The translations under genes were made by a program, and so were the position numbers. A DNA stretch of 38,205 bases from an uncultured Flavobacteriales bacterium. Its GTDB lineage: Bacteria > Bacteroidota > Bacteroidia > Flavobacteriales_D > Sanyastnellaceae. Each line of letters starts with the position of its first letter. The stretch's first letter is position 1. Under the pieces are notes generated by a model. That model had not been told where the DNA came from. It made no database searches and saw only the letters and a list, made by a program, of their open reading frames with translations. The stretch lies in contig CAJQIB010000056.1 in the NCBI GenBank assembly GCA_905478325.1, positions 1-38,205 on the forward strand. Reading direction: 5' to 3'. Below are positions 3,559 through 32,607 of this stretch, in pieces.

Positions 3559-4683
3559 ATGAGTCTTGAACGGACACCCCGACGACGCAAGTTGTTCCTG
3601 GTCGCAGGAGAAGCTTCAGGCGATCTCTATGGCGGACAATTGGCGGAGGCACTGCTACAACTCGATCCTCATCTTGAAATCAGAGGTTGGGGAGGTGAGG
3701 CCATGGAAGCCTCAGGGGTCAAGATTTCGACCCATTATAGAGATCTCGCTTTCATGGGGTTTTGGGAGGTCCTCAAAAACCTCAAAACCATTCGACGAAA
3801 CCTGAAGCGATGCACGGAAGAAATCCTTTCTTTCCAGCCCGATGCCTTTGTGGGCATCGATTTTCCAGGATTCAATTTACGGGTTGCTGCCAATGTAGGA
3901 AAAGCAGGCGTTTTCACCCACCATTACATCTCTCCTTCCATTTGGGCTTGGAATGCACGGAGAATCCACCGCATCAAACGCACCGTGCAGCGCATGCATG
4001 TGACCATGCCTTTTGAACTCGCACCATACGAGGCGGCACACATGGATGTTCGTTTTGTCGGGCACCCATTGATCTCGTTATTGGATCAACTTCCAGACCA
4101 AAATCTCGACGTAAAGACCTCCCTTCCCATCTTAGCGTTGCTCCCTGGATCGCGAACACAAGAGCTGAACCACATGCTTCCATTGCTGGTGCAAACAGCA
4201 CGGTTGCTGCCACAATTTCAGCCTGTCATTGCCGGTGCTCCGGGACAACCCGCCTCAGCCTATCACGAAGCTACTGCCTTGGGCATCCCCGTTGTTTTCA
4301 ATCAAACTCGCTTGTTGATGAAGACTGCTGCGGTGGGATTGATCACCTCCGGCACTGCGACCCTTGAAGCCAGTTTACTTGGACTCCCTCAGATCATTTG
4401 CTATAGAACAAGCCGTTTAACCTATGCCATTGCAAAAAGGTTGGCGCAGGTTCAATGGATTGGATTGCCCAACATCATTCTAAACGAATCCTCCGTACCG
4501 GAGAGAATACAGGGTGCATGTAGTGTAAAAACGCTGAGCCAAGACGTTGAATTACTGCACGATGGAACAGACTGGACCGCTCTTGGTCAAAAACAAAAAG
4601 AATTGGCCACTTCTTTGAGACACATTCTGGGTTCCGAAGCTGCAGCAGCGAACACCGCAGCTTCAATCATGGAAACGCTTTGA
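3559..4683 (+). CDS. lpxB: Lipid-A-disaccharide synthase LpxB
   Basis: A 374-residue peripheral membrane glycosyltransferase (GT19) that joins UDP-2,3-diacylglucosamine and lipid X into the lipid A disaccharide. Family signatures seen: VAGEASGDLYGGQLAEAL at residues 15-32, GIDFPGFNLR, HHYISPSIWAWN, VGHPL, LLPGSRTQEL and the C-terminal SGTATLEASLLGLPQIICYR. Length is typical. It shows that the organism makes lipid A and so is Gram-negative. Its stop overlaps the next start by one base (TGATG at 4681-4685). Confidence 0.95.
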   Translation: MSLERTPRRRKLFLVAGEASGDLYGGQLAEALLQLDPHLEIRGWGGEAMEASGVKISTHYRDLAFMGFWEVLKNLKTIRRNLKRCTEEILSFQPDAFVGIDFPGFNLRVAANVGKAGVFTHHYISPSIWAWNARRIHRIKRTVQRMHVTMPFELAPYEAAHMDVRFVGHPLISLLDQLPDQNLDVKTSLPILALLPGSRTQELNHMLPLLVQTARLLPQFQPVIAGAPGQPASAYHEATALGIPVVFNQTRLLMKTAAVGLITSGTATLEASLLGLPQIICYRTSRLTYAIAKRLAQVQWIGLPNIILNESSVPERIQGACSVKTLSQDVELLHDGTDWTALGQKQKELATSLRHILGSEAAAANTAASIMETL

Positions 4684-5795
4684 TGCGATTATTCTCCTGT
4701 TTACTGGTGTGTCTTACGGTTGCAATCCAGACAGGTCAAAGCCAGGACATCGTCCGCATTGGACTCGTGGATTTTTCGAAGGCCCAGACTCTGAAAATCC
4801 GATCTGTTTCAGGTGGCTATCATTGGCTCAATGCCACGGGCCAAATTCTCGACACCCTAACCGAATCAACGCAAATATCCATCCGGGACAAGCAGTGGAA
4901 GGGGAACAACCTCCCCCTTGAAAACCATTTGATTTTACAACCCATCGTGCCTGGAAGTGTGTTGAGCATTCAGTCAGTCCACACCGGATACAGACAGGTC
5001 AGAGGGGTCCTGCATTTGTTCGCCGATTCTGAAGTCCGATGTGTCTTGGAAACCCCATTAGAAGCCTACCTGCCTGGCGTTTTGGTCGCAGAAGCGGGCA
5101 AAGGCCATTTCCCTGATTTTTACGAGGCACAGGCCATTGTCAGCCGCACGTATACGGTTCAATCCATGGGACGCCATCGGCTAGAAGGCTTTGACCTGTG
5201 TAACAGCGTTCATTGCCAAGTATTCCAAGGGATTAGCACAGTAAATGACACCATTTTGTCTGCGGTCATGTCCACGCGCGACCTGATTTTAATCGATGCG
5301 AACACGCGTCCCATTACGGCGGCTTTTCACTCCAACTGTGGTGGACATACACAGGGCTCTGAGGCTGTTTGGCAACATGCTCTTCCCTACTTAAAAGGAG
5401 TGCAAGATTCCTTCTGCTTAACTTATCCTCACAGCCACTGGGAACAGCTCATCGATGCGAAGGCTTGGCAAAATTGGCTGCAATCCAAAAGCGGTGATTC
5501 ACTTCCGCCTGGTCAATGGCTGCCCACAGAAAGAGAATCCTTCTTGATGAATCGAGAAGATGCCATTCGAACTTCCCAAGCACGGAAAGCGTTTGGATTT
5601 CGTTCGGGGTTTTTTATTACATTGAATGAAGGGGACTCCATTCGCGTCATCGGCCGGGGATTCGGTCACGGTGTCGGCATGTGCCAAGAAGGTGCTATGG
5701 GACGTGCCAAGGCCAATCACGACGCATGGGATATCTTGTCCCATTATTACCACAAGGTCAGCCTGACGCCATGGCAGAACGCCCAACTTGAGTAA
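4683..5795 (+). CDS. Secreted SpoIID/LytB-domain protein (probable peptidoglycan lytic enzyme or amidase enhancer)
   Basis: About 370 residues with an N-terminal signal peptide (MRLFSCLLVCLTVAIQTGQS). The ATG at 4683 overlaps the lpxB stop by one base; an in-frame TTG at 4680 is a less likely start. The SpoIID core is clear: the LEAYLPGVLVAEAG segment with the putative catalytic Glu137, EAQAIVSRTYTV, the CNSVHCQVF metal-site motif (C173, H177, C178), FHSNCGGHTQGSEAVW and the C-terminal GRGFGHGVGMCQEGAMG. In sporulating bacteria SpoIID is a lytic transglycosylase acting on denuded glycan strands. In Bacteroidota its role is not settled, and since this is a non-sporulating lineage a general cell-wall role is inferred. 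Key residues are intact, so activity is likely. Confidence 0.88.
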   Translation: MRLFSCLLVCLTVAIQTGQSQDIVRIGLVDFSKAQTLKIRSVSGGYHWLNATGQILDTLTESTQISIRDKQWKGNNLPLENHLILQPIVPGSVLSIQSVHTGYRQVRGVLHLFADSEVRCVLETPLEAYLPGVLVAEAGKGHFPDFYEAQAIVSRTYTVQSMGRHRLEGFDLCNSVHCQVFQGISTVNDTILSAVMSTRDLILIDANTRPITAAFHSNCGGHTQGSEAVWQHALPYLKGVQDSFCLTYPHSHWEQLIDAKAWQNWLQSKSGDSLPPGQWLPTERESFLMNREDAIRTSQARKAFGFRSGFFITLNEGDSIRVIGRGFGHGVGMCQEGAMGRAKANHDAWDILSHYYHKVSLTPWQNAQLE

Positions 5796-20748: not shown

Positions 20749-22647
20749 ATGCAAAAAGGAAACATCAACGTTCAAACGGAAAATATTTTCCCCATCATCA
20801 AGAAGTTCCTCTACAGTGACCATGAGATCTTCCTCCGCGAGTTGGTGTCCAATGCTGTAGACGCAACACAAAAGCGAAAAACGCTTGCGAAGCTTGGCGA
20901 AATGCCTGCCGTCGAAGGAGAAACTTCCATAGAAGTGATCATCGACTCGGAGGCCAAGACATTGACTATTCGCGATCGGGGCATTGGCATGACCGAAGAA
21001 GAAGTCAATAAATACATCAACCAAATTGCCTTCTCAGGAGCGACAGAATTCTTGGACAAGTACCAAGGAGATGATGCGAAAACCGCCATCATTGGCCACT
21101 TCGGTTTGGGGTTCTATTCGGCCTTCATGGTCGCCAAGCATGTAGACATCATTTCTTGGAGTCAAAAAGAGGACAGTACGCCTGTCCAATGGACGTGCGA
21201 CGGTTCACCCGCTTACGAAATTGGAGAAGCGACCAAGGACGAGCGGGGCACTGACATTGTACTACACATTGCTGATGACAGCCAAGAGTTTTTGGAGCAA
21301 GCGCGAATTGATGGCATTCTGAACAAGTATTGCAAGTTCATGCCGGTCGAAATCATTTCAGGAACAACCAGCAATTGGGAAGATGATCCTTCGGGCGAAA
21401 AAGACGAAAATGATGCCGTCAAGAAAATCGAAACGAAGGTTCCGAATGTCATCAACAAGACCCAACCCTTGTGGAGCCGACAGCCTGCGGACTTGAAGGA
21501 TGAGGATTACCAAGAGTTTTACAAGGATCTGTACCCGATGAATTTCGAGGATCCATTGTTTCACATTCACCTCAACGTGGACTTCCCATTCAATTTGACG
21601 GGCATCCTCTACTTCCCGCAGCTCAAAAAAGAGATGGAGTTGCGCAAGGACAAAATTCATTTGTATTCGAATCAGGTGTTTATCACGGACAACGTCGAGA
21701 ACATTGTCCCTGACTTTTTAACGATGTTGCACGGCGTCATTGATTCACCGGACATTCCTTTGAATGTGTCGCGCTCTTATCTGCAAGAAGACGCCAACGT
21801 CAAGAAAATTAGCGGCCACATCTCCAAGAAAGTCTCAGACAAATTGGGTTCGATGTTCAAAAAGGACCGGGAGACCTTTGCCGCACAATGGGATGACTTG
21901 CGCATTTTCGTTGAATACGGAATGCTGACAGATGAGAAGTTTACAGAGCGCGCAAAGAAATTCTTACTCTTCAAGGACACCGAGGGCGAATGCATGACAC
22001 ACGAAGAGTTGATTGCTGCTATTGGAGAAACGCAGAAGGATAAAAGTGGTAAGGTCATTTTGCCATACACGAATAATCCAAAGGGACAACACGCCTTTAT
22101 TGAGCCGGCAAAAGAGCGCGGATATAAAGTGTTGGTCATGGAGGGGCCCTTGGCAGCACACATGGTCCAAAAACTAGAAGAGGCCTATCCGGATGTTCAA
22201 TTCAAGCGTGTTGACTCAGATGTCATTGACAACTTGATTGAAACGGACGAAGCCTCGACCAGCGCCTTGGATGAGAAGCAAGAAGAAACGCTCAAGCCCA
22301 TTATCGAAGGAGCTTTCCCAGCAGGAACATACAAAGTGAAGTTTGTAGCGATGTCTCCATCAGCAGCACCAATCACCATTACCCGAGCTGAATTCATGCG
22401 CCGGATGAAGGAACAGCAAGCAGTTGGTGGTGGAGGATTTCAGATGTTCGGGGACATGCCCGAAAATTATGAGGTCGCAGTCAATGCCAATCACCCGATG
22501 GTTCAAAAGCTATTGAATGAATCAGACGCCGCGGAACAAGCCAAACTGGCCAAACGAGCTGGAAACTTAGCCCGATTGTCTCAAGGCTTACTAGAAGGCG
22601 CCGAGCTTACTTCCTTCATCACGGAAGGCTATTCTGAACTTTCGTGA
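20749..22647 (+). CDS. htpG: Molecular chaperone HtpG (Hsp90)
   Basis: A 632-residue cytosolic Hsp90. The N-terminal GHKL ATPase motifs are all present: ELVSNAVDA with E31, N35 and D38, DRGIGM near 80, and GHFGLGFYSAFMVA near 120. The middle domain carries GVIDSPDIPLNVSRSYLQ with the conserved Arg. The C-terminal dimerisation domain is complete (NPNHPMVQKL-type sequence, here NANHPMVQKLLN). Length is normal for the family. The stop overlaps a GTG start of the next gene (GTGA), so the downstream co-chaperone gene is likely to be translated in step with it. Confidence 0.96.
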   Translation: MQKGNINVQTENIFPIIKKFLYSDHEIFLRELVSNAVDATQKRKTLAKLGEMPAVEGETSIEVIIDSEAKTLTIRDRGIGMTEEEVNKYINQIAFSGATEFLDKYQGDDAKTAIIGHFGLGFYSAFMVAKHVDIISWSQKEDSTPVQWTCDGSPAYEIGEATKDERGTDIVLHIADDSQEFLEQARIDGILNKYCKFMPVEIISGTTSNWEDDPSGEKDENDAVKKIETKVPNVINKTQPLWSRQPADLKDEDYQEFYKDLYPMNFEDPLFHIHLNVDFPFNLTGILYFPQLKKEMELRKDKIHLYSNQVFITDNVENIVPDFLTMLHGVIDSPDIPLNVSRSYLQEDANVKKISGHISKKVSDKLGSMFKKDRETFAAQWDDLRIFVEYGMLTDEKFTERAKKFLLFKDTEGECMTHEELIAAIGETQKDKSGKVILPYTNNPKGQHAFIEPAKERGYKVLVMEGPLAAHMVQKLEEAYPDVQFKRVDSDVIDNLIETDEASTSALDEKQEETLKPIIEGAFPAGTYKVKFVAMSPSAAPITITRAEFMRRMKEQQAVGGGGFQMFGDMPENYEVAVNANHPMVQKLLNESDAAEQAKLAKRAGNLARLSQGLLEGAELTSFITEGYSELS

Positions 22648-23381
22648 GCAATTACGGCCCATGGATCGGAGGTGCAATCGGTTGGGCATTAGGCGGCCCA
22701 ATCGGTGGCATCTTGGGGTATTCGTTCGGTAAGATGTTTGCCGGAGGGTCTGGAGCTGCGCAACAAAACCCAATAGGGCGTGACAATGGCCGATCAACAC
22801 GATCAGGTGATTTCGCCGTTTCGCTGCTTGTTCTGAGTGCCGCTGTTATGAAAGCCGATGACAAGGTTCTCAAATCTGAGCTTGACTTTGTCAAGTCCTT
22901 TTTGAAAAACAATTTCGGACCAGCACAAGCGGATCAGTTGACCTTAATGTTGCGTGAGACTCTGAGTCAATCCATCGATACGCGGGGTGTTGCAGAGCAA
23001 ATTCGTCTGCAGATGGATCACGCTAAGCGACTCTTGCTTCTGCAATACCTGTTTGGCATCGCCAAAGCAGATGGACACATCCACAGCTCTGAATTGGATG
23101 TGATTCGGCAAATTGCCAAATGGCTCGGAATCCATGAGCGCGACCGCGTCAGTATTGAGGAAATGTTCCAAGCAGGAAAGGCCGATCCGTTTTCTGTTTT
23201 GGAAATAGACCCATCCAGCACGGATTCAGAAGTCAAAAAAGCCTATCGCAAAATGGCCGTGAAATTTCACCCTGACAAAGTCCAAGATTTGGGTGAATCG
23301 CATCAAAAACAGGCCAAAGAACGGTTCATTGCGATTCAGGCCGCTTATGAACAAATCAAACTCGATCGAGGTATGAAATAG
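22644..23381 (+). CDS. TerB and J-domain co-chaperone (DjlA-like)
   Basis: A 245-residue protein. The GTG at 22644 overlaps the htpG stop by 4 bases and gives the N-terminus MSNYGPWIGGAIGWALGGPIG, a Gly-rich hydrophobic segment like the membrane anchor of DjlA. Residues about 55-165 match a TerB helical domain (FAVSLLVLSAAVMKADDKV, LFGIAKADGHIHSSELDVIRQI). The C-terminal J domain (about 178-240, DPFSVLEIDPSSTDSEVKKA) has an intact HPD at residues 209-211, so it should stimulate DnaK. The gene order links an Hsp70 partner to Hsp90. Calling it djlA would be reasonable but is not certain. Confidence 0.88.
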   Translation: MSNYGPWIGGAIGWALGGPIGGILGYSFGKMFAGGSGAAQQNPIGRDNGRSTRSGDFAVSLLVLSAAVMKADDKVLKSELDFVKSFLKNNFGPAQADQLTLMLRETLSQSIDTRGVAEQIRLQMDHAKRLLLLQYLFGIAKADGHIHSSELDVIRQIAKWLGIHERDRVSIEEMFQAGKADPFSVLEIDPSSTDSEVKKAYRKMAVKFHPDKVQDLGESHQKQAKERFIAIQAAYEQIKLDRGMK

Positions 23382-26594: not shown

Positions 26595-26650
26595 AAATCT
26601 CTAACGCATCAAATGCCGTATTGTTCAAAGTGGCATTTAAAAATTGAAGC

Positions 26651-26729
26651 AAAAAAATGAAGCACCCGCCGTTGCAGATGCTTCACTACGATTCACAACT
26701 AGGTCCTCCAAGAACTAATGTTCAATGAC
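26651..26729 (-). ncRNA. Candidate small RNA, about 80 nt
   Basis: Inferred from a promoter and terminator pair on the minus strand. The promoter has TATATTTG at 26743-26736 with a TTG 20 bases upstream at 26766-26764, the best -33/-7 pair in this window. Transcription would begin near 26729. The end is a hairpin (TGAAGCA at 26685-26679 with TGCTTCA at 26664-26658, 14-base loop) followed by seven T at 26657-26651. A second short hairpin, GTTCT-TGG-AGGAC, lies near the 5' end. No convincing protein is encoded. It could instead be an untranslated leader reaching the SRPBCC gene if the terminator leaks. Not matched to any known RNA family by eye. Confidence 0.4.
26658..26685 (-). terminator. Rho-independent terminator-like hairpin on the minus strand
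   Basis: A 7-base-pair inverted repeat (TGAAGCA/TGCTTCA) with a 14-base loop, followed on the minus strand by TTTTTTT (26657-26651). It lies upstream of, and points toward, the SRPBCC gene, and no annotated gene reads into it from the right. That makes it the end of an unannotated transcript or a leader attenuator. Confidence 0.5.
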
Positions 26730-26735
26730 CCAAAT

Positions 26736-26841: not shown

Positions 26842-28092
26842 ATGAAGATGTGTCCCTACTTTTGGCACATGTCCTCCAAGACGATTTTACACGTTGCCCT
26901 CATTGCAGGTGCAGCTTTCTTTTCGGTTCTCCCAGCGCGCTGTTGGAGCCAATCTGACCTCGAATTTTGGAAGGAACAAACCGTCCAACGAATCAATTGT
27001 GCGGATTTTGAATCGTTCCAGAGTCGTTTTCCAACGTGGTACGATTCAAACGCAGTGCCCACCATCAAGGATTCCGTTCCGGAGCTGGACGCATTGGAAA
27101 GAGCGCTACAACCATGGGGTCAAGATCCTGAACTTGAAGATGCTTGTGTACAATCCCTGCTAGAAGGAAACATGCTGCGGCTGCAAATCTTGCATGCGAT
27201 GCACGGTTTATACGGCAAGGACATTGAACGCGCGTTGGCTTTGAAAGAAATCCCATCTTCATTTCAATGGATTCCAGTTATCGCATCAGCCTACAACCAT
27301 GCTTTCAATAGCGGCAATAAACGCGCTGGACTGTGGGGACTGACACGTGCACAAGCTGACAAAGAAAACATAGCCCGCTCCATTTACGTGGATGAACGCA
27401 TGCTCCCCCACGTATCGACTCGCGCAGCCATTGACATCTTGGACCGACTGCAGCGTCGATTTCCAATGAACCCTGAACGGGTATTGGTTGGATTCTTCAA
27501 GGGCATGCCCTTCGCTTCGCGATGGAGTGGCAAGCCAGGATATGACCAAGCTTTGGACGAATGGCTTTCATTTTATCGCGTTGTCGCTCGGTTTATGGTC
27601 AACTTGGATTCTCCTGAATTCGAAGCGCAATGGGGAGAAGTGCTGACTGAATGGGAGTCCATTGCATGCCCTGGCGAATTCAACCGAGCAGGTTTGAAAG
27701 CTGTTTTGAATATGACCGAGGACGTTCAAAAACAGCTCCTTCCCTGGTGGACCCATGAAACCATGCCGTGTGATACCTTCGACGAATTCCAGCCCTTTGT
27801 GCCAAAAAACTGGTCAGAAACATGGAATAATAACCTGGAGAACCTGGCCAATTGGGACGAAAACCCTGACTTAGAGCCACCTGTACCGCACACGACAACG
27901 GAATCGAAAAAGCAGGTTGCTTCACCTTCACGCTCTCTCCCATGCACCGAACATGAGGTCAAAAAGGGTGATACATTGTATAACATCTCCAAGCGGTTTC
28001 CCGGGACAACCCCCGAACAAATCGCAGCAACAAACGGGATTGATACGGTCATTAAGATTGGCCAAACCCTGTGCATTCCGCGAGCGGAATGA
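26842..28092 (+). CDS. LysM protein with degenerate lytic-transglycosylase-like domain
   Basis: 416 residues if started at the ATG at 26842; the ATG at 26869 gives a cleaner signal peptide (MSSKTILHVALIAGAAFFSVL) and is equally likely. Residues about 120-220 (numbered from 26842) resemble the MltD-type SLT domain: IPSSFQWIPVIASAYNHA, then RAGLWGLTRAQADK, STRAAIDILDRLQRRFP and the later VGFFKGMPFASRW. The catalytic Glu of MltD (in VESAF) is replaced by Ala148 (GCA at 27283-27285), and the AYNSG motif is also lost. Residues about 370-416 form a LysM domain (HEVKKGDTLYNISKRFPG...IKIGQTLCIPRAE), which binds peptidoglycan. It is probably a glycan-binding non-enzyme. First gene of a four-gene chain; its stop overlaps the next start as ATGA. 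Confidence 0.82.
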   Translation: MKMCPYFWHMSSKTILHVALIAGAAFFSVLPARCWSQSDLEFWKEQTVQRINCADFESFQSRFPTWYDSNAVPTIKDSVPELDALERALQPWGQDPELEDACVQSLLEGNMLRLQILHAMHGLYGKDIERALALKEIPSSFQWIPVIASAYNHAFNSGNKRAGLWGLTRAQADKENIARSIYVDERMLPHVSTRAAIDILDRLQRRFPMNPERVLVGFFKGMPFASRWSGKPGYDQALDEWLSFYRVVARFMVNLDSPEFEAQWGEVLTEWESIACPGEFNRAGLKAVLNMTEDVQKQLLPWWTHETMPCDTFDEFQPFVPKNWSETWNNNLENLANWDENPDLEPPVPHTTTESKKQVASPSRSLPCTEHEVKKGDTLYNISKRFPGTTPEQIAATNGIDTVIKIGQTLCIPRAE

Positions 28093-29669
28093 CACCGAAG
28101 GCTCACCCTGTAATCAAGACGTTGGCGTTTCTTTGCGCCGTGGGGCTATTCACCGGGCTTTGGATGAATCGTCCCAACACCCCGACTTTTGACCTGCTTC
28201 CCTTTCCAAGATGGGACGACTTTTTGCACTCGACTCCTTCAGTTCTGCAGCCCGAATCAATTGATACGTTACTTGTGGCTTATGACACCTACGTTCGTGT
28301 AGATACAAGTCAAGCTTTGAATGCGAGCACACATGACACCTTAACGGTGCAGATCGCATCGCATATCCCACAAGACACTGCGTTCAAAACGCCCCTCCCG
28401 CCAGGAAACAACGGGACATTTGAGGCATCTTCCTATCCAAGGCTGTCTGCAAAAACATCCCTTCACCCCAACTTGCAACTTCAGGGATCACAGCGTGCTT
28501 TTGATCAGCTCTCTTCTCTGTTTAATCACTTGCACCTTCGGGGGAGTCAAGATGCCCTGCATATTTTCCATTTTGGAGATTCTCAAATTGAAGGCGATCG
28601 AGTCACGCGCTCCTTGCGCACTGCATGGCAAAAACGCTGGGGAGGCTATGGAATGGGGTACCTCGCTCCTAAGCCATTGGTAGCGCCGAACTCCATGACG
28701 CAAACAACGTCAGATGGGTGGGAGCGCCATGCTCGATTTGGCCGCAGAGATTCAACCATAGAACACCGACGATATGGAGTCCTCGCTTCTTTCGCGACCC
28801 ATGCCCCTTCTTTGGAAACGGACGAAACACCCTGGATTCGATTGGAGCCCCGGAAACATGCAGGCCAAAATGAACGGCAAGTTCATTCCATCAAGATGCT
28901 GTTTGGACGAACCGATTCAAATGCTCGCATGACATGCCAAGTGGACTCGATGCTGTTGGGTCCGTTCCTCATTCCCGCAGACAGTACGGGATCAGAATTG
29001 ATTGTTCCCATAGCTGCATTGACAGCCTCGAATGTTTTTAAATCGATTGAATTCAAGTTCGACGGCCCTATTCCTGAGGTTGATGCGATTGGAATGCTCC
29101 CCGATACAGGATTGGTTTTTCACAATGTTGCCATGCGCGGGTCATCAGGAACGCTGTTTCGACAATTGGACCGCACGCAATTTTCAGCGCAACTGAAATC
29201 ACAGGATGTTGGAATGATTCTGCTTCAGTTTGGCGGAAATGCGGTCCCATACATTGCAGACACCGCCGCCGTCGAGCGCTATGGTGAGTGGTTCGCTTCT
29301 CAAATCAGACTGTTTCAAAAGACACTTCCAAATGCCGCCATCGTCGTTATTGGCCCTTCTGACATGGCCACCAAGGAGGAGCAACACATGGTCACGTATC
29401 CCATGCTTGTCCCTGTACGCAATGCGCTGCGACGAGCCGCTTTGAATGAAGATGTTCTTTATTGGGATGTTTTCGAGGTGATGGGTGGAGCGGGGTCCAT
29501 GGCAGCGTGGGTGGCCTCTGAGCCATCTCTTGCTAGCTCTGACCATGTTCACTTCACACGTAGGGGCGCAAAAAAGATCGCATCGCTCCTCTTGCAGAGT
29601 TTGGATGCCGAATGGCTAGCCTGGAAACAATGGCACACTGAAAACACACCTGCATTGTCAGCGCCATGA
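28089..29669 (+). CDS. SGNH/GDSL hydrolase-like protein, copy 1 (O-acylation partner)
   Basis: 526 residues. The ATG at 28089 overlaps the upstream stop by 4 bases. An N-terminal hydrophobic segment (VIKTLAFLCAVGLFTGLW) looks like an uncleaved anchor or signal, and a Pro/Thr/Ser-rich linker of about 80 residues follows. The SGNH domain shows block I HFGDSQIEGDR with the nucleophile Ser165, and block V SDHVHFTRRG with Asp485 and His488. LLQFGGNAVP is the probable block III. The catalytic residues look complete, so it should be an esterase or acetyltransferase in the periplasm. Such proteins work with MBOAT partners (AlgJ/AlgX, PatB type) to place acetyl groups on glycans. It is not clear whether it transfers or removes acyl groups. 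Confidence 0.85.
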   Translation: MTPKAHPVIKTLAFLCAVGLFTGLWMNRPNTPTFDLLPFPRWDDFLHSTPSVLQPESIDTLLVAYDTYVRVDTSQALNASTHDTLTVQIASHIPQDTAFKTPLPPGNNGTFEASSYPRLSAKTSLHPNLQLQGSQRAFDQLSSLFNHLHLRGSQDALHIFHFGDSQIEGDRVTRSLRTAWQKRWGGYGMGYLAPKPLVAPNSMTQTTSDGWERHARFGRRDSTIEHRRYGVLASFATHAPSLETDETPWIRLEPRKHAGQNERQVHSIKMLFGRTDSNARMTCQVDSMLLGPFLIPADSTGSELIVPIAALTASNVFKSIEFKFDGPIPEVDAIGMLPDTGLVFHNVAMRGSSGTLFRQLDRTQFSAQLKSQDVGMILLQFGGNAVPYIADTAAVERYGEWFASQIRLFQKTLPNAAIVVIGPSDMATKEEQHMVTYPMLVPVRNALRRAALNEDVLYWDVFEVMGGAGSMAAWVASEPSLASSDHVHFTRRGAKKIASLLLQSLDAEWLAWKQWHTENTPALSAP

Positions 29670-30919
29670 CTATTGGATGCCTATCCATTCTATGCGCACT
29701 GACCGGGGCATTCGAAACAGCCCCCATTTCGTTGCCCTCGGACTCCATCCCGTTGTCCTCGTCCCACACATGGCACTTACCTCCAGATTGCACACCGCTT
29801 GAAGCCGTTTGGCACACCATGGACTCAATGCAGTATGAAGGAGTCGGAACCCTTTCCTGCTTGTATATCGGTGGTTCGCATGTGCAATCAGGTTGGATCG
29901 GTCTCGGTTTAAGAAAACGATTTGAAGAGGCCTTTCCTATGAGCAATCAAGCCCGAGGGTGGATGCTCCCTTACCGCATGGCTCAAACAGATACTCCTAC
30001 CCATTTCAGGACAGAGTCCTCTGGAGAATGGTCAGGAATGCGTTGCGTTCAAAGTCGATACAAAGGGCCCTTTGGAAGCACTGGCGTACGTGCACACACC
30101 GAAGACATCCAGGCCACATGGCAGCACGTTTCGCTTCGATCAGATTCTAGCTTACACGCAAGTAACACAATTGAAGTCTGGGGACAAGCGACAGGCTGTA
30201 TCCCTCAATGGCTAGGGAGTGAAACGCTACGTCATTGCGATACCCTTGCGAACGGGAGCGGTTGGAGATTTCTATTTGACCAGGAGGTGGATACGGTTCG
30301 GTTCGGGATTGAACGTCTCGGGAAAAGCACGATTGCCTTCGATTTGTTCGCGACTGTTCACGTACCGACATCCCGAAAAAAAGCACAATTCACGCTCTAT
30401 GAGTGGGGAAACAATGGAGCAAAAGTTTCGAGCGCGATGCGCTGCGAACGCTGGGAAACAGAATGGCCTGCTCTCAACTTGGACCTCATCTTCATTGGAC
30501 TTGGAATCAACGACATTCATTCCGCCGGGAAAACTTGGAACGAAGAACGATTCGAGGTCGAATATGACGCCATGGTCCAGCGCATTCAACTTGCTGCGCC
30601 GCATGCGACACTGATTTTACTGAGCAACACCGACTCCATGCGAAAGGGCCAGTCCATGGCAAAACAAGCGCAGCGGATGCACGCAATCCAGCAGCAAATC
30701 GCTGTCCGACGTCAGTGCGTAACCTTCGATCTAGGGCGCGCTATGGGTTCACCGGGCTGCATTGAGGACTGGCATCAAAGAGGTTGGGCTCAACCCGATC
30801 TGATTCACTTCACGCCTCGAGGCTATGATGCATTGGCTGAAATCCTATTTTCATCTTGGATTGCTGCCCACAAATCGTGGCACACGTCTTATCCTGTGCC
30901 ATCTTCGCACGAACGATGA
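29666..30919 (+). CDS. SGNH hydrolase-like protein, copy 2
   Basis: 417 residues, starting at the ATG at 29666 that overlaps the previous stop. The N-terminus (MTIGCLSILCALTGAFETAP) is a likely signal peptide. Block I reads YIGGSHVQSG with Ser71, so the usual GDS Asp is Gly. Block III is LGINDIHSAG and block V is PDLIHFTPRG with Asp378 and His381. The Ser-Asp-His set is therefore present despite the block I change. It is clearly different in sequence from copy 1, so the pair is not a recent duplication. Its stop overlaps the MBOAT start. Probable envelope glycan O-acyl esterase or transferase. Confidence 0.82.
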   Translation: MTIGCLSILCALTGAFETAPISLPSDSIPLSSSHTWHLPPDCTPLEAVWHTMDSMQYEGVGTLSCLYIGGSHVQSGWIGLGLRKRFEEAFPMSNQARGWMLPYRMAQTDTPTHFRTESSGEWSGMRCVQSRYKGPFGSTGVRAHTEDIQATWQHVSLRSDSSLHASNTIEVWGQATGCIPQWLGSETLRHCDTLANGSGWRFLFDQEVDTVRFGIERLGKSTIAFDLFATVHVPTSRKKAQFTLYEWGNNGAKVSSAMRCERWETEWPALNLDLIFIGLGINDIHSAGKTWNEERFEVEYDAMVQRIQLAAPHATLILLSNTDSMRKGQSMAKQAQRMHAIQQQIAVRRQCVTFDLGRAMGSPGCIEDWHQRGWAQPDLIHFTPRGYDALAEILFSSWIAAHKSWHTSYPVPSSHER

Positions 30920-32607
30920 TGGATTGGATTCTCTTTGACGCCAATGAACCGCTCACGTTCATGCAAGGAGCCTTTTGGGGCTTTTTCTTGTTCGTGTTAG
31001 CCGGTTTTGCGATTCTAGAAAAAAGAAGGGCCCTACGCAATGCCTTTTTGTTTGCAGTGAGCTTGTTCTTCTACTGGAAAACGAGCGGCTCCTTCGTCCT
31101 CATCCTCTTGTTTTCGACCGTTTCCGATTGGTGGATTGGACACCGAATCCATGCGTCCGATGGAGCGACCCGAAAAGCCTGGCTCGCTTGGAGCATCGCG
31201 ATCAACTTGGTCATTCTCTTTTATTTCAAGTACGCCTATTTTCTCGCGGACAGTATCAGCCCGCTACTAGGAACGCATTGGAACCCCCAGCATGTTATTG
31301 GAGGGTTCGCCAATTCCTCGTTCGGAACAAGCTTCCGAGTGGATCGCATTTTACTTCCCGTTGGTATTTCGTTTTATACGTTTCAAACCATGTCATACGC
31401 GCTGGACGTATACCGAAACGATGTCAAACCCGTCAAAAGCTTGGTTGATTTCGGATTCTTTGTGTGCTTCTTTCCGCAACTTGTGGCGGGTCCCATTGTC
31501 AGAGCCAAGGATTTCATTCCTCAAATTCATCGCCCGTATGCACTGACTCACGCCGGTTTTGGAATGGCCCTATTCTGGATCCTCAATGGGCTGATCAAAA
31601 AGGTTTGGTTGGCAGACTATGTTGCTACCAACCTCGTCGACCGTGTTTTTGCCAATCCTGAAAGCTATTCTGGATTGGAGAATTTACTGGGACTCTATGG
31701 GTACAGCCTTCAAGTATATGGGGACTTTAGTGGCTATACCGATATGGCGATTGGGGTCGCATTGCTCATGGGATTTCATCTGCCTACCAATTTCAATTCC
31801 CCTTACAAAGCCCGCAACCTCGGAGAGTTTTGGAAGCGATGGCACATGAGCCTTTCGAGCTGGTTAAAAGATTATCTGTACATCCCCATGGGCGGTAATC
31901 GCAATGCCTCTGCGTTTACATGGATAAGCGGTGGAATCTTTTTACTCTTTCTCATCCTGCTCTCTCCTTCATTCGGATGGATTCTTGTCGGAAGCGGATT
32001 ACTCTTGCTTTTTTTGGCTTTGGCATGGGCTTTCCCTGGAGTTCAGAAGAGCATCTCAACCAACATCAACTTGCTAATGACCATGATGATTGGAGGGTTG
32101 TGGCACGGTGCGAGCTGGAATTTTGTGCTGTGGGGAGCCCTCAATGGAGTCGGTCTGATTTTTTACAAATACTGGAAGCGCATCAGTCCATGGGAAATTA
32201 AAAATCGCTGGTGGAAGCACCTCATCGGCATCCTCCTGACCTTTCACTTCATCACCTTTACGCGCGTTTGGTTTCGAACGGGGTCTCAAACACGATGGGA
32301 GGACATCGGCAGTCCCCATGACTTGTGGCATGAGTGGTTTTCTGCAAACAGCATGCTCCATCAATTGACGCAAGGTTTCGGCGGAACACCGTTCTTCGAT
32401 GTGATCTGGGGCTACCGAAGCGTGTTGGCCGTTATGGCCTTGGGATATGCCATTCACATGGTCCCTGAGTCTTGGAAAAAACCGTATCGAAACAGATTTA
32501 GCCAATCCCCCTTGTTCGTTCAATGGTTGATTGCTATCGGCGTTATCGGACTTGTCTGGGCTGGAACGAGTGCTGAAATGCAGCCGTTCATTTACTTCCA
32601 GTTTTGA
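30916..32607 (+). CDS. MBOAT family O-acyltransferase (AlgI/PatA-like)
   Basis: 563 residues with about 10-12 membrane segments. The ATG at 30916 overlaps the upstream stop (ATGATG; 30919 also possible). Family motifs: LFFYWKTSGSF, PVGISFYTFQTMSYALDVYR, FFPQLVAGPIVRAKDFIPQ, SGYTDMAIGVALLMGF, FWKRWHMSLSSWLKDYLYIPMGGNR and GGLWHGASWNFVLWG with the catalytic His397. AlgI/PatA proteins move acetyl groups from cytosolic acetyl-CoA across the membrane to periplasmic SGNH partners. Two such partners lie directly upstream. The substrate could be peptidoglycan, favoured by the LysM gene in the same operon, or an exopolysaccharide. Confidence 0.93.
   Translation: MMDWILFDANEPLTFMQGAFWGFFLFVLAGFAILEKRRALRNAFLFAVSLFFYWKTSGSFVLILLFSTVSDWWIGHRIHASDGATRKAWLAWSIAINLVILFYFKYAYFLADSISPLLGTHWNPQHVIGGFANSSFGTSFRVDRILLPVGISFYTFQTMSYALDVYRNDVKPVKSLVDFGFFVCFFPQLVAGPIVRAKDFIPQIHRPYALTHAGFGMALFWILNGLIKKVWLADYVATNLVDRVFANPESYSGLENLLGLYGYSLQVYGDFSGYTDMAIGVALLMGFHLPTNFNSPYKARNLGEFWKRWHMSLSSWLKDYLYIPMGGNRNASAFTWISGGIFLLFLILLSPSFGWILVGSGLLLLFLALAWAFPGVQKSISTNINLLMTMMIGGLWHGASWNFVLWGALNGVGLIFYKYWKRISPWEIKNRWWKHLIGILLTFHFITFTRVWFRTGSQTRWEDIGSPHDLWHEWFSANSMLHQLTQGFGGTPFFDVIWGYRSVLAVMALGYAIHMVPESWKKPYRNRFSQSPLFVQWLIAIGVIGLVWAGTSAEMQPFIYFQF

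Follow-up and report, generated by a model that had tools for sequence, protein, structure and literature searches.

A probable Bacteroidota-type peptidoglycan O-acetylation operon headed by a putative pseudoenzyme of lytic transglycosylase descent

The DNA analysed here is a 38,205-nucleotide stretch (the window) of contig CAJQIB010000056.1 from an uncultured Flavobacteriales bacterium, whose genome measures 2.38 Mb and is 98.9% complete. At positions 26869-32607 of its forward strand lies a four-gene operon encoding, in order, a LysM/MltD-like protein of lytic transglycosylase (LT) type, two SGNH proteins (SGNH1 and SGNH2) and an MBOAT. The reading we favour, with somewhat better than even confidence, is that this is a Bacteroidota-type operon for peptidoglycan (PG) O-acetylation to which a pseudoenzyme partner of SGNH2 has been added, acting by the mechanism proposed below. 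Genes 2 to 4 fit a known kind, the PG O-acetylation (OAP) cluster, and it is gene 1 that is new. The original prediction for this locus, made from the sequence, recognized the MBOAT and SGNH proteins, the connection to PG and the dead transglycosylase fold, but overlooked that three of the four genes fit an OAP cluster as described earlier (PMC1199599).

Gene 1 (26869..28092, + strand; product P0001) encodes the pseudo-LT, an MltD-like protein with one LysM that is predicted to be secreted; a crude cleavage-motif regular expression matches 54 of 82 LT N-termini. Pfam places an SLT/MltD-like domain at residues 141-231 (27262..27534, +), with a score of 23.2 bits that lies just over the 21.3 cut-off, and a LysM domain at residues 371-413 (27952..28080, +; 2e-13). 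A transglycosylase fold lacking the catalytic Glu had been claimed for this protein, and modelling against MltD, which had been suggested as a check, bears the claim out: the model (pLDDT 86.6) has P. aeruginosa MltD 8rhe as its best structural match (Z 18.3, root-mean-square deviation (rmsd) 5.3, 243 aligned residues), and in the alignment codon 148 (27283..27285, +; P0001 numbering), encoding Ala, occupies the position of the catalytic Glu of the GH23 family. The catalytic site reads ASAYN, and that of the genome's own MltD reads ESGLN. With MltD (8rhe, 8rhf, 8rhi) the protein therefore shares fold and LysM, while the Glu and the Asn of the AYN motif are lost.

This loss is not confined to the window. 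Glu was found in 0/38 members of a first homologue set (5 of them short), and among 75 full-length OAP-linked LTs both Glu and the AYN Asn are lost in 68 and kept in 6; a further row (L147), with Glu and no Asn over a deleted stretch, was judged misaligned. Seven short OAP-linked LTs were left out of these column counts and of the LT tree. As a control, Glu, Tyr, Asn, Trp and Gln stand in 30/30 canonical MltDs of relatives. In the 68 dead rows, D184 and R186 of the DER motif are retained in all and W165, the Trp of GLW, in 67, and no newly conserved acid appeared in the LT domain among 69 dead rows, where the only acids at 70% or more, D184 and E185, are conserved in canonical MltD as well. 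Because a canonical MltD match (E 1e-30 or better) is present in 40/40 relatives searched, the pseudo-LT is a paralogue of MltD and not its replacement. The six copies that keep Glu and AYN (L127, L131, L134, L135, L151, L158) are Bacteroidales-type and appear to be live MltDs lying directly upstream of OAP genes. A phage origin of the LT was also considered, and a tblastn search of 50,697 phage records returned no hit.

The two SGNH proteins are of the Ape1 type. SGNH1 (28089..29669, +), a putative acetyltransferase, carries S165, G351, N384, D485 and H488, and SGNH2 (29666..30919, +), a putative O-acetylesterase that is probably secreted, carries S71, G248, N282, D378 and H381; SGNH1 scores slightly below both Pfam GDSL cut-offs and SGNH2 above one of the two. 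For both, the best sequence match in the PDB is Neisseria meningitidis Ape1, with E 3.6e-14 for SGNH1 and E 1.2e-9 for SGNH2, the latter a sequence match over residues 58-397. The SGNH1 model (pLDDT 79.3) aligns with Ape1 4k3u at Z 38.0 (rmsd 2.4, 342 aligned) and with C. jejuni Ape1 at Z 35.4 (8gkd) and 35.0, while PatB is matched over a single domain only, at Z 14.2-14.7 (8tlb, Z 14.7, 192 aligned). The Ape1 arrangement of an SGNH triad with an inserted second domain is thus seen in the model of SGNH1 and, at sequence level, along most of SGNH2. After exclusion of SGNH rows of 330 aa or fewer, the catalytic S, G, N, D and H are retained in at least 113/114 SGNH1 and at least 115/116 SGNH2 homologues, and the block II Gly, which is Ser or Asn in PatB, is Gly in 114/114 and 115/116, respectively. 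The parallel that had been drawn with PatA/PatB does not hold for the SGNH proteins, the PDB matches and the SGNH1 model both pointing to Ape1 and not to PatB. The paralogues also differ at their N-termini: the crude cleavage motif matches 11/114 SGNH1 vs 61/116 SGNH2, and a plain test finds a hydrophobic N-terminal stretch in 104/114 vs 54/116, so that SGNH1 probably begins with an uncleaved transmembrane anchor. In a fasttree phylogeny of 230 rows the two are nearly, though not cleanly, separated, the labels requiring two changes instead of one where long branches meet.

The MBOAT (30916..32607, +; Pfam MBOAT 2e-19) is PatA-like, with the MBOAT fold, an invariant His (that of WHG, which aligns to DltB) and a C-terminal FIYFQF (32587..32604, +; Tyr560) of the PatA-type FXYXXF form, a motif in which the Tyr bears the acetyl group and which reads FIYSSF or FIYANF in PatA proteins (PMC12148441). 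The motif is found in 105/108 complete MBOATs, eight incomplete ones being excluded. The claim that MBOAT and SGNH proteins act here in acyl transfer is supported. An identity with DltB was rejected, as NCBIfam LTA_dltB gave 167 bits, far below its 375 cut-off, and a reading as AlgI/AlgJ/AlgX exopolysaccharide modification was set aside, there being no supporting neighbours among the 24 ORFs scanned and the best PDB matches of the SGNH proteins being Ape1.

Clusters of the form ape1b-ape1c-pat were described in 2005 (Weadge), among others from Bacteroides and Porphyromonas, P. gingivalis included, and PG O-acetylation was measured at 69.4% in B. fragilis and 27.0% in B. thetaiotaomicron (PMC1199599). 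The present locus reproduces this order, with two adjacent Ape1-type SGNH genes ahead of an adjoining MBOAT, 1b and 1c being named by order and not by tree. It differs in that a gene for an LT-derived pseudoenzyme comes first, whereas the excerpts of that paper used here name a cation-efflux gene upstream of the Bacteroides cluster and no LT (PMC1199599). With the patA-patB-ape1 operon of Neisseria it has in common an MBOAT with an FXYXXF end and an Ape1-fold SGNH, but here there is no PatB-type SGNH, two Ape1-type proteins are present, the MBOAT is last instead of first and a pseudo-LT is added (PMC7083599). A further parallel is the LtgA-Ape1 complex of Neisseria meningitidis, in which a transglycosylase likewise stands alongside an Ape1-type protein; LtgA raises the rate of Ape1 on p-nitrophenyl acetate, which is no substrate of LtgA (PMC7083599). 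LtgA, however, is an active enzyme encoded outside the pat operon as described (PMC7083599), while the LT considered here, a putative partner, is dead and co-operonic.

The mechanism we propose begins with the MBOAT, which would take an acetyl group off acetyl-CoA, load it on its own C-terminal Tyr560 and pass it to SGNH1, anchored in the inner membrane, which would then set the acetyl on MurNAc of PG. SGNH2, free in the periplasm, would strip acetyls. The pseudo-LT, secreted like SGNH2 and non-cutting, would bind the glycan strand and hold or activate SGNH2 there, a partnership modelled on that of active LtgA with Ape1. SGNH1 is the likely transferase because the MBOAT needs an SGNH partner to hand on the acetyl and SGNH1 is the one that stays beside it, and SGNH2 is the LT's likely partner because its loss accompanies reduction of the LT. 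Since LtgA boosts Ape1 on a substrate that LtgA does not use, cutting by the LT may, by analogy, be dispensable for activation. The original prediction had the LT holding the strand for the SGNH pair; the holder role is kept here as a proposal, in a sharper form, as co-occurrence ties the LT to SGNH2.

That co-occurrence was assessed in 100 relatives, in a GTDB set made up of the 80 loci ranking highest in similarity to SGNH1, and in an even sample of the phylum comprising 247 genomes, 48 of them with an SGNH1 match, from which 40 loci in 39 newly added genomes were taken, six of the 48 genomes being left out. Dropping duplicates reduced 134 clusters to 129 and, later, 138 to 132, of which 126 had enough upstream sequence. 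With that same requirement, an LT lies directly upstream of the SGNH-SGNH-MBOAT triple in 30/38 clusters from the relatives and 45/56 from the GTDB set, which goes beyond a chance arrangement. Among the 126 contiguous clusters, those with both SGNH1 and SGNH2 have a full LT in 68 cases (62 dead, 6 Glu-bearing), a remnant or broken LT in six and no LT in 33; those with SGNH1 alone have an LT remnant in eight, no LT in ten and a full LT in none; the order SGNH2-SGNH1 without LT occurs once and SGNH2 alone never. A full-length LT is therefore found only with both SGNHs (68/68), and a lone SGNH adjoining the MBOAT is always SGNH1 (18/18). In the phylum sample, some loci with a single SGNH have another one close by, on the opposite strand or elsewhere around the MBOAT. 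LT remnants of 206-312 aa occur in 13 clusters, in addition to one broken copy. Eight loci (L056, L069, L088, L089, L090, L110, L112, L114) are cut down to an LT remnant, SGNH1 and MBOAT, and possibly represent a minimal acetyltransferase pair.

At the level of genomes, a full-length dead LT and SGNH1 occur together in 46 of the 100 relatives. A further three (G015, G020, G049) have the LT without SGNH1, the G020 copy running up to the end of its contig; 18 have SGNH1 but no such LT, and 33 have neither. The LT is located away from SGNH1 in 11 of these genomes; all 16 extra LTs checked, those 11 included, lack Glu and Asn. The same 11 genomes all contain SGNH1 plus another SGNH of lower score, which we take as SGNH2, and nine have a full MBOAT orthologue, with that of G058 in pieces and none in G045. 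As an aside, a metagenome-assembled genome titled Muiribacteriota (L124) carries Bacteroidota-like SGNH1 and MBOAT genes, through mislabelling or transfer.

The LT tree, built from 105 rows by a quick method after removal of two trait columns and with SH-aLRT support only, sets apart dead OAP-linked LTs, Glu-bearing OAP-linked LTs and canonical MltDs, each by a single branch (SH-aLRT 99, 99 and 95), the Glu-bearing copies being sister to the dead clade. The Glu state changes once, L147 being left out of this state count and assigned to the dead group on the tree, so on this tree the catalytic Glu was lost once, anciently. Dead copies are found in Flavobacteriales, Cytophagales, Bacteroidales and Marinilabiliales. 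Comparison of the LT with that of three relatives gives ratios of nonsynonymous to synonymous substitution (dN/dS) of 0.133, 0.150 and 0.148, and the pseudo-LT is under purifying selection; values are 0.13-0.28 for the SGNH genes, with one SGNH1 value undefined through saturation, and 0.030 and 0.056 for the MBOAT against two relatives.

Several findings weigh against the favoured reading. The block II Gly, which is linked to true esterases (PMC12148441), is present in SGNH1 as well as in SGNH2. The operon has no PatB-type protein either, and for that reason the transferase assignment is one that we infer; SGNH1 may work like PatB despite its Ape1-type features. The four-gene order, whose rarity across Bacteroidota would have spoken against the original prediction, recurs in the relatives and the GTDB set, but in the even phylum sample an LT precedes the triple in only 1/15 clusters, or 3/18 when the other members of that sample, G000, G025 and G068, are counted, and the LT-led operon is therefore a feature of part of Bacteroidota. 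All co-occurrence counts come from related genomes and are thus not independent. The 33 two-SGNH clusters with no adjoining LT indicate that SGNH2 is not always in need of one there, and six more have only a remnant or broken copy. Finally, G015 and G049 retain a full-length pseudo-LT where SGNH1, SGNH2 and a close MBOAT were not found by the queries used. In G015 (L246), meaB, a small ORF, the LT, the SRPBCC-like gene and a zincin keep their order and the three OAP genes alone are gone. Either the OAP genes were lost recently in these genomes or the LT has another role, and its retention alone means that it may have a role outside OAP.

These last two findings are what would be expected if the pseudo-LT bound the wall in a separate capacity, for instance as a tether or to protect O-acetylated strands against active LTs, and had nothing but transcription in common with the OAP genes. 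We regard this as unlikely, though the most serious of the alternatives, given that full-length LTs in contiguous clusters always accompany both SGNHs and that the LT is co-retained in 11 genomes despite lying apart. Rather improbable is an acetylated polymer other than PG, either another envelope glycan or a secreted one; MBOAT and SGNH pairs do also modify alginate, cellulose and secondary wall polymers (PMC12148441). The SGNH folds are nevertheless Ape1-type, a protein with LysM and MltD fold is encoded in front, and PG O-acetylation was measured in Bacteroides with the identical three-gene order (PMC1199599). A Pfam scan of 24 neighbour ORFs in the window found none resembling an exopolysaccharide cluster, some having no family and one of 103 aa matching GT87 below cut-off, and the MBOAT is the only one above cut-off in the genome. 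PG, named as the likely substrate from the outset, thus stays the probable one, and the exopolysaccharide neighbourhood that would have counted against it is absent from the scanned ORFs.

That the LT is instead a functionless, decaying relic stuck in the operon is very unlikely: several branches of its tree are long, the window's genus has one LysM fewer and the remnants and broken copy noted above exist, but its dN/dS resembles that of the SGNH genes and full-length open frames persist across several orders since the single loss on the tree. Less probable still is an LT that remains catalytic through another acid or substrate-assisted chemistry, to which purifying selection and the retained GLW Trp and DER residues might point; the dead rows offer no newly conserved acid in the domain, and the AYN Asn has gone along with the Glu.

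Extending the favoured reading beyond the window, we suggest, tentatively and at rather less than even odds, that in many Flavobacteriales and several other Bacteroidota lineages the OAP-tied LT gave up catalysis in a single event and evolved into a non-catalytic subunit dedicated to placing and switching on SGNH2, with SGNH1 having taken the role of PatB. O-acetylation of PG acts as a control on autolysins and a block to lysozyme (PMC6174289), and in this scenario a wall cutter would have come to regulate the very modification that prevents cutting. The notion of an LT as partner was already raised by LtgA-Ape1; a selectively kept pseudoenzyme with one origin on the tree would be a clean model for LTs as partners rather than cutters, the sister clusters with an apparently live enzyme permit a before-and-after comparison, and SGNH1, through the clusters in which it is the sole SGNH, becomes a transferase candidate open to testing. 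Among open-licence PMC papers we found none describing a dead LT in PG O-acetylation and none assigning acetyl transfer vs removal to the SGNHs in Bacteroidota.

On re-reading, the four ORFs and the three ATGA overlaps claimed for their junctions proved exact: LT/SGNH1 at 28089..28092, SGNH1/SGNH2 at 29666..29669 and SGNH2/MBOAT at 30916..30919, all on the + strand. Such overlaps suggest translational coupling; the fixed ratio of products originally proposed would go beyond that. The start of gene 1 had been set at 26842, from which the frame is indeed open, but homologues begin at MSSK, and the true start is probably 26869. With mechanically assigned starts, the LT-SGNH1 junction is a 4-base overlap in 37/82 cases, and a further 9/82 lie at -21, the window's own value if an earlier GTG is chosen. 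A scan for promoters and terminators returned fewer sites than in shuffled sequence.

Divergent from the operon lies a conserved structured small RNA of ~85 nt (26649..26732, - strand), a neighbour for which operon membership is not implied. It consists of a hairpin, a nearly invariant linker and loop, and a terminator with compensatory changes, and is preceded by a TATATTTG box, which we take to be a Bacteroidota -7 element. It sits between the operon and a gene to which Pfam gave no family and which we presume to be SRPBCC-like. The RNA is 84-98% identical in 16/17 genus loci, while SGNH1 within the genus is 42-94% identical to that of the window, and 9/24 pairs are changed on both sides, against a shuffled mean of 3.5 (0/500 as high) and 1-4 in slid controls. 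Within the window Rfam had no hit reaching the gathering score, and a permissive search returned two at chance level (E 0.54 and 0.99). A model search recovered the RNA in 20/21 other genus genomes and in 31/100 relatives in all, two of them weakly. Its distance to the LT is ~0.1 kb in G015 and ~2.5 kb in G049; in G015 (L246), small RNA and pseudo-LT both remain where the three OAP genes are gone.

Elsewhere in the window, at 20749-23381, a gene for an HSP90-like protein overlaps a TerB/DnaJ-domain gene, with a DUF5117/met-zincin gene adjoining. At 4680-5795, a gene for a SpoIID-domain protein, another possible wall enzyme, overlaps an LpxB gene.

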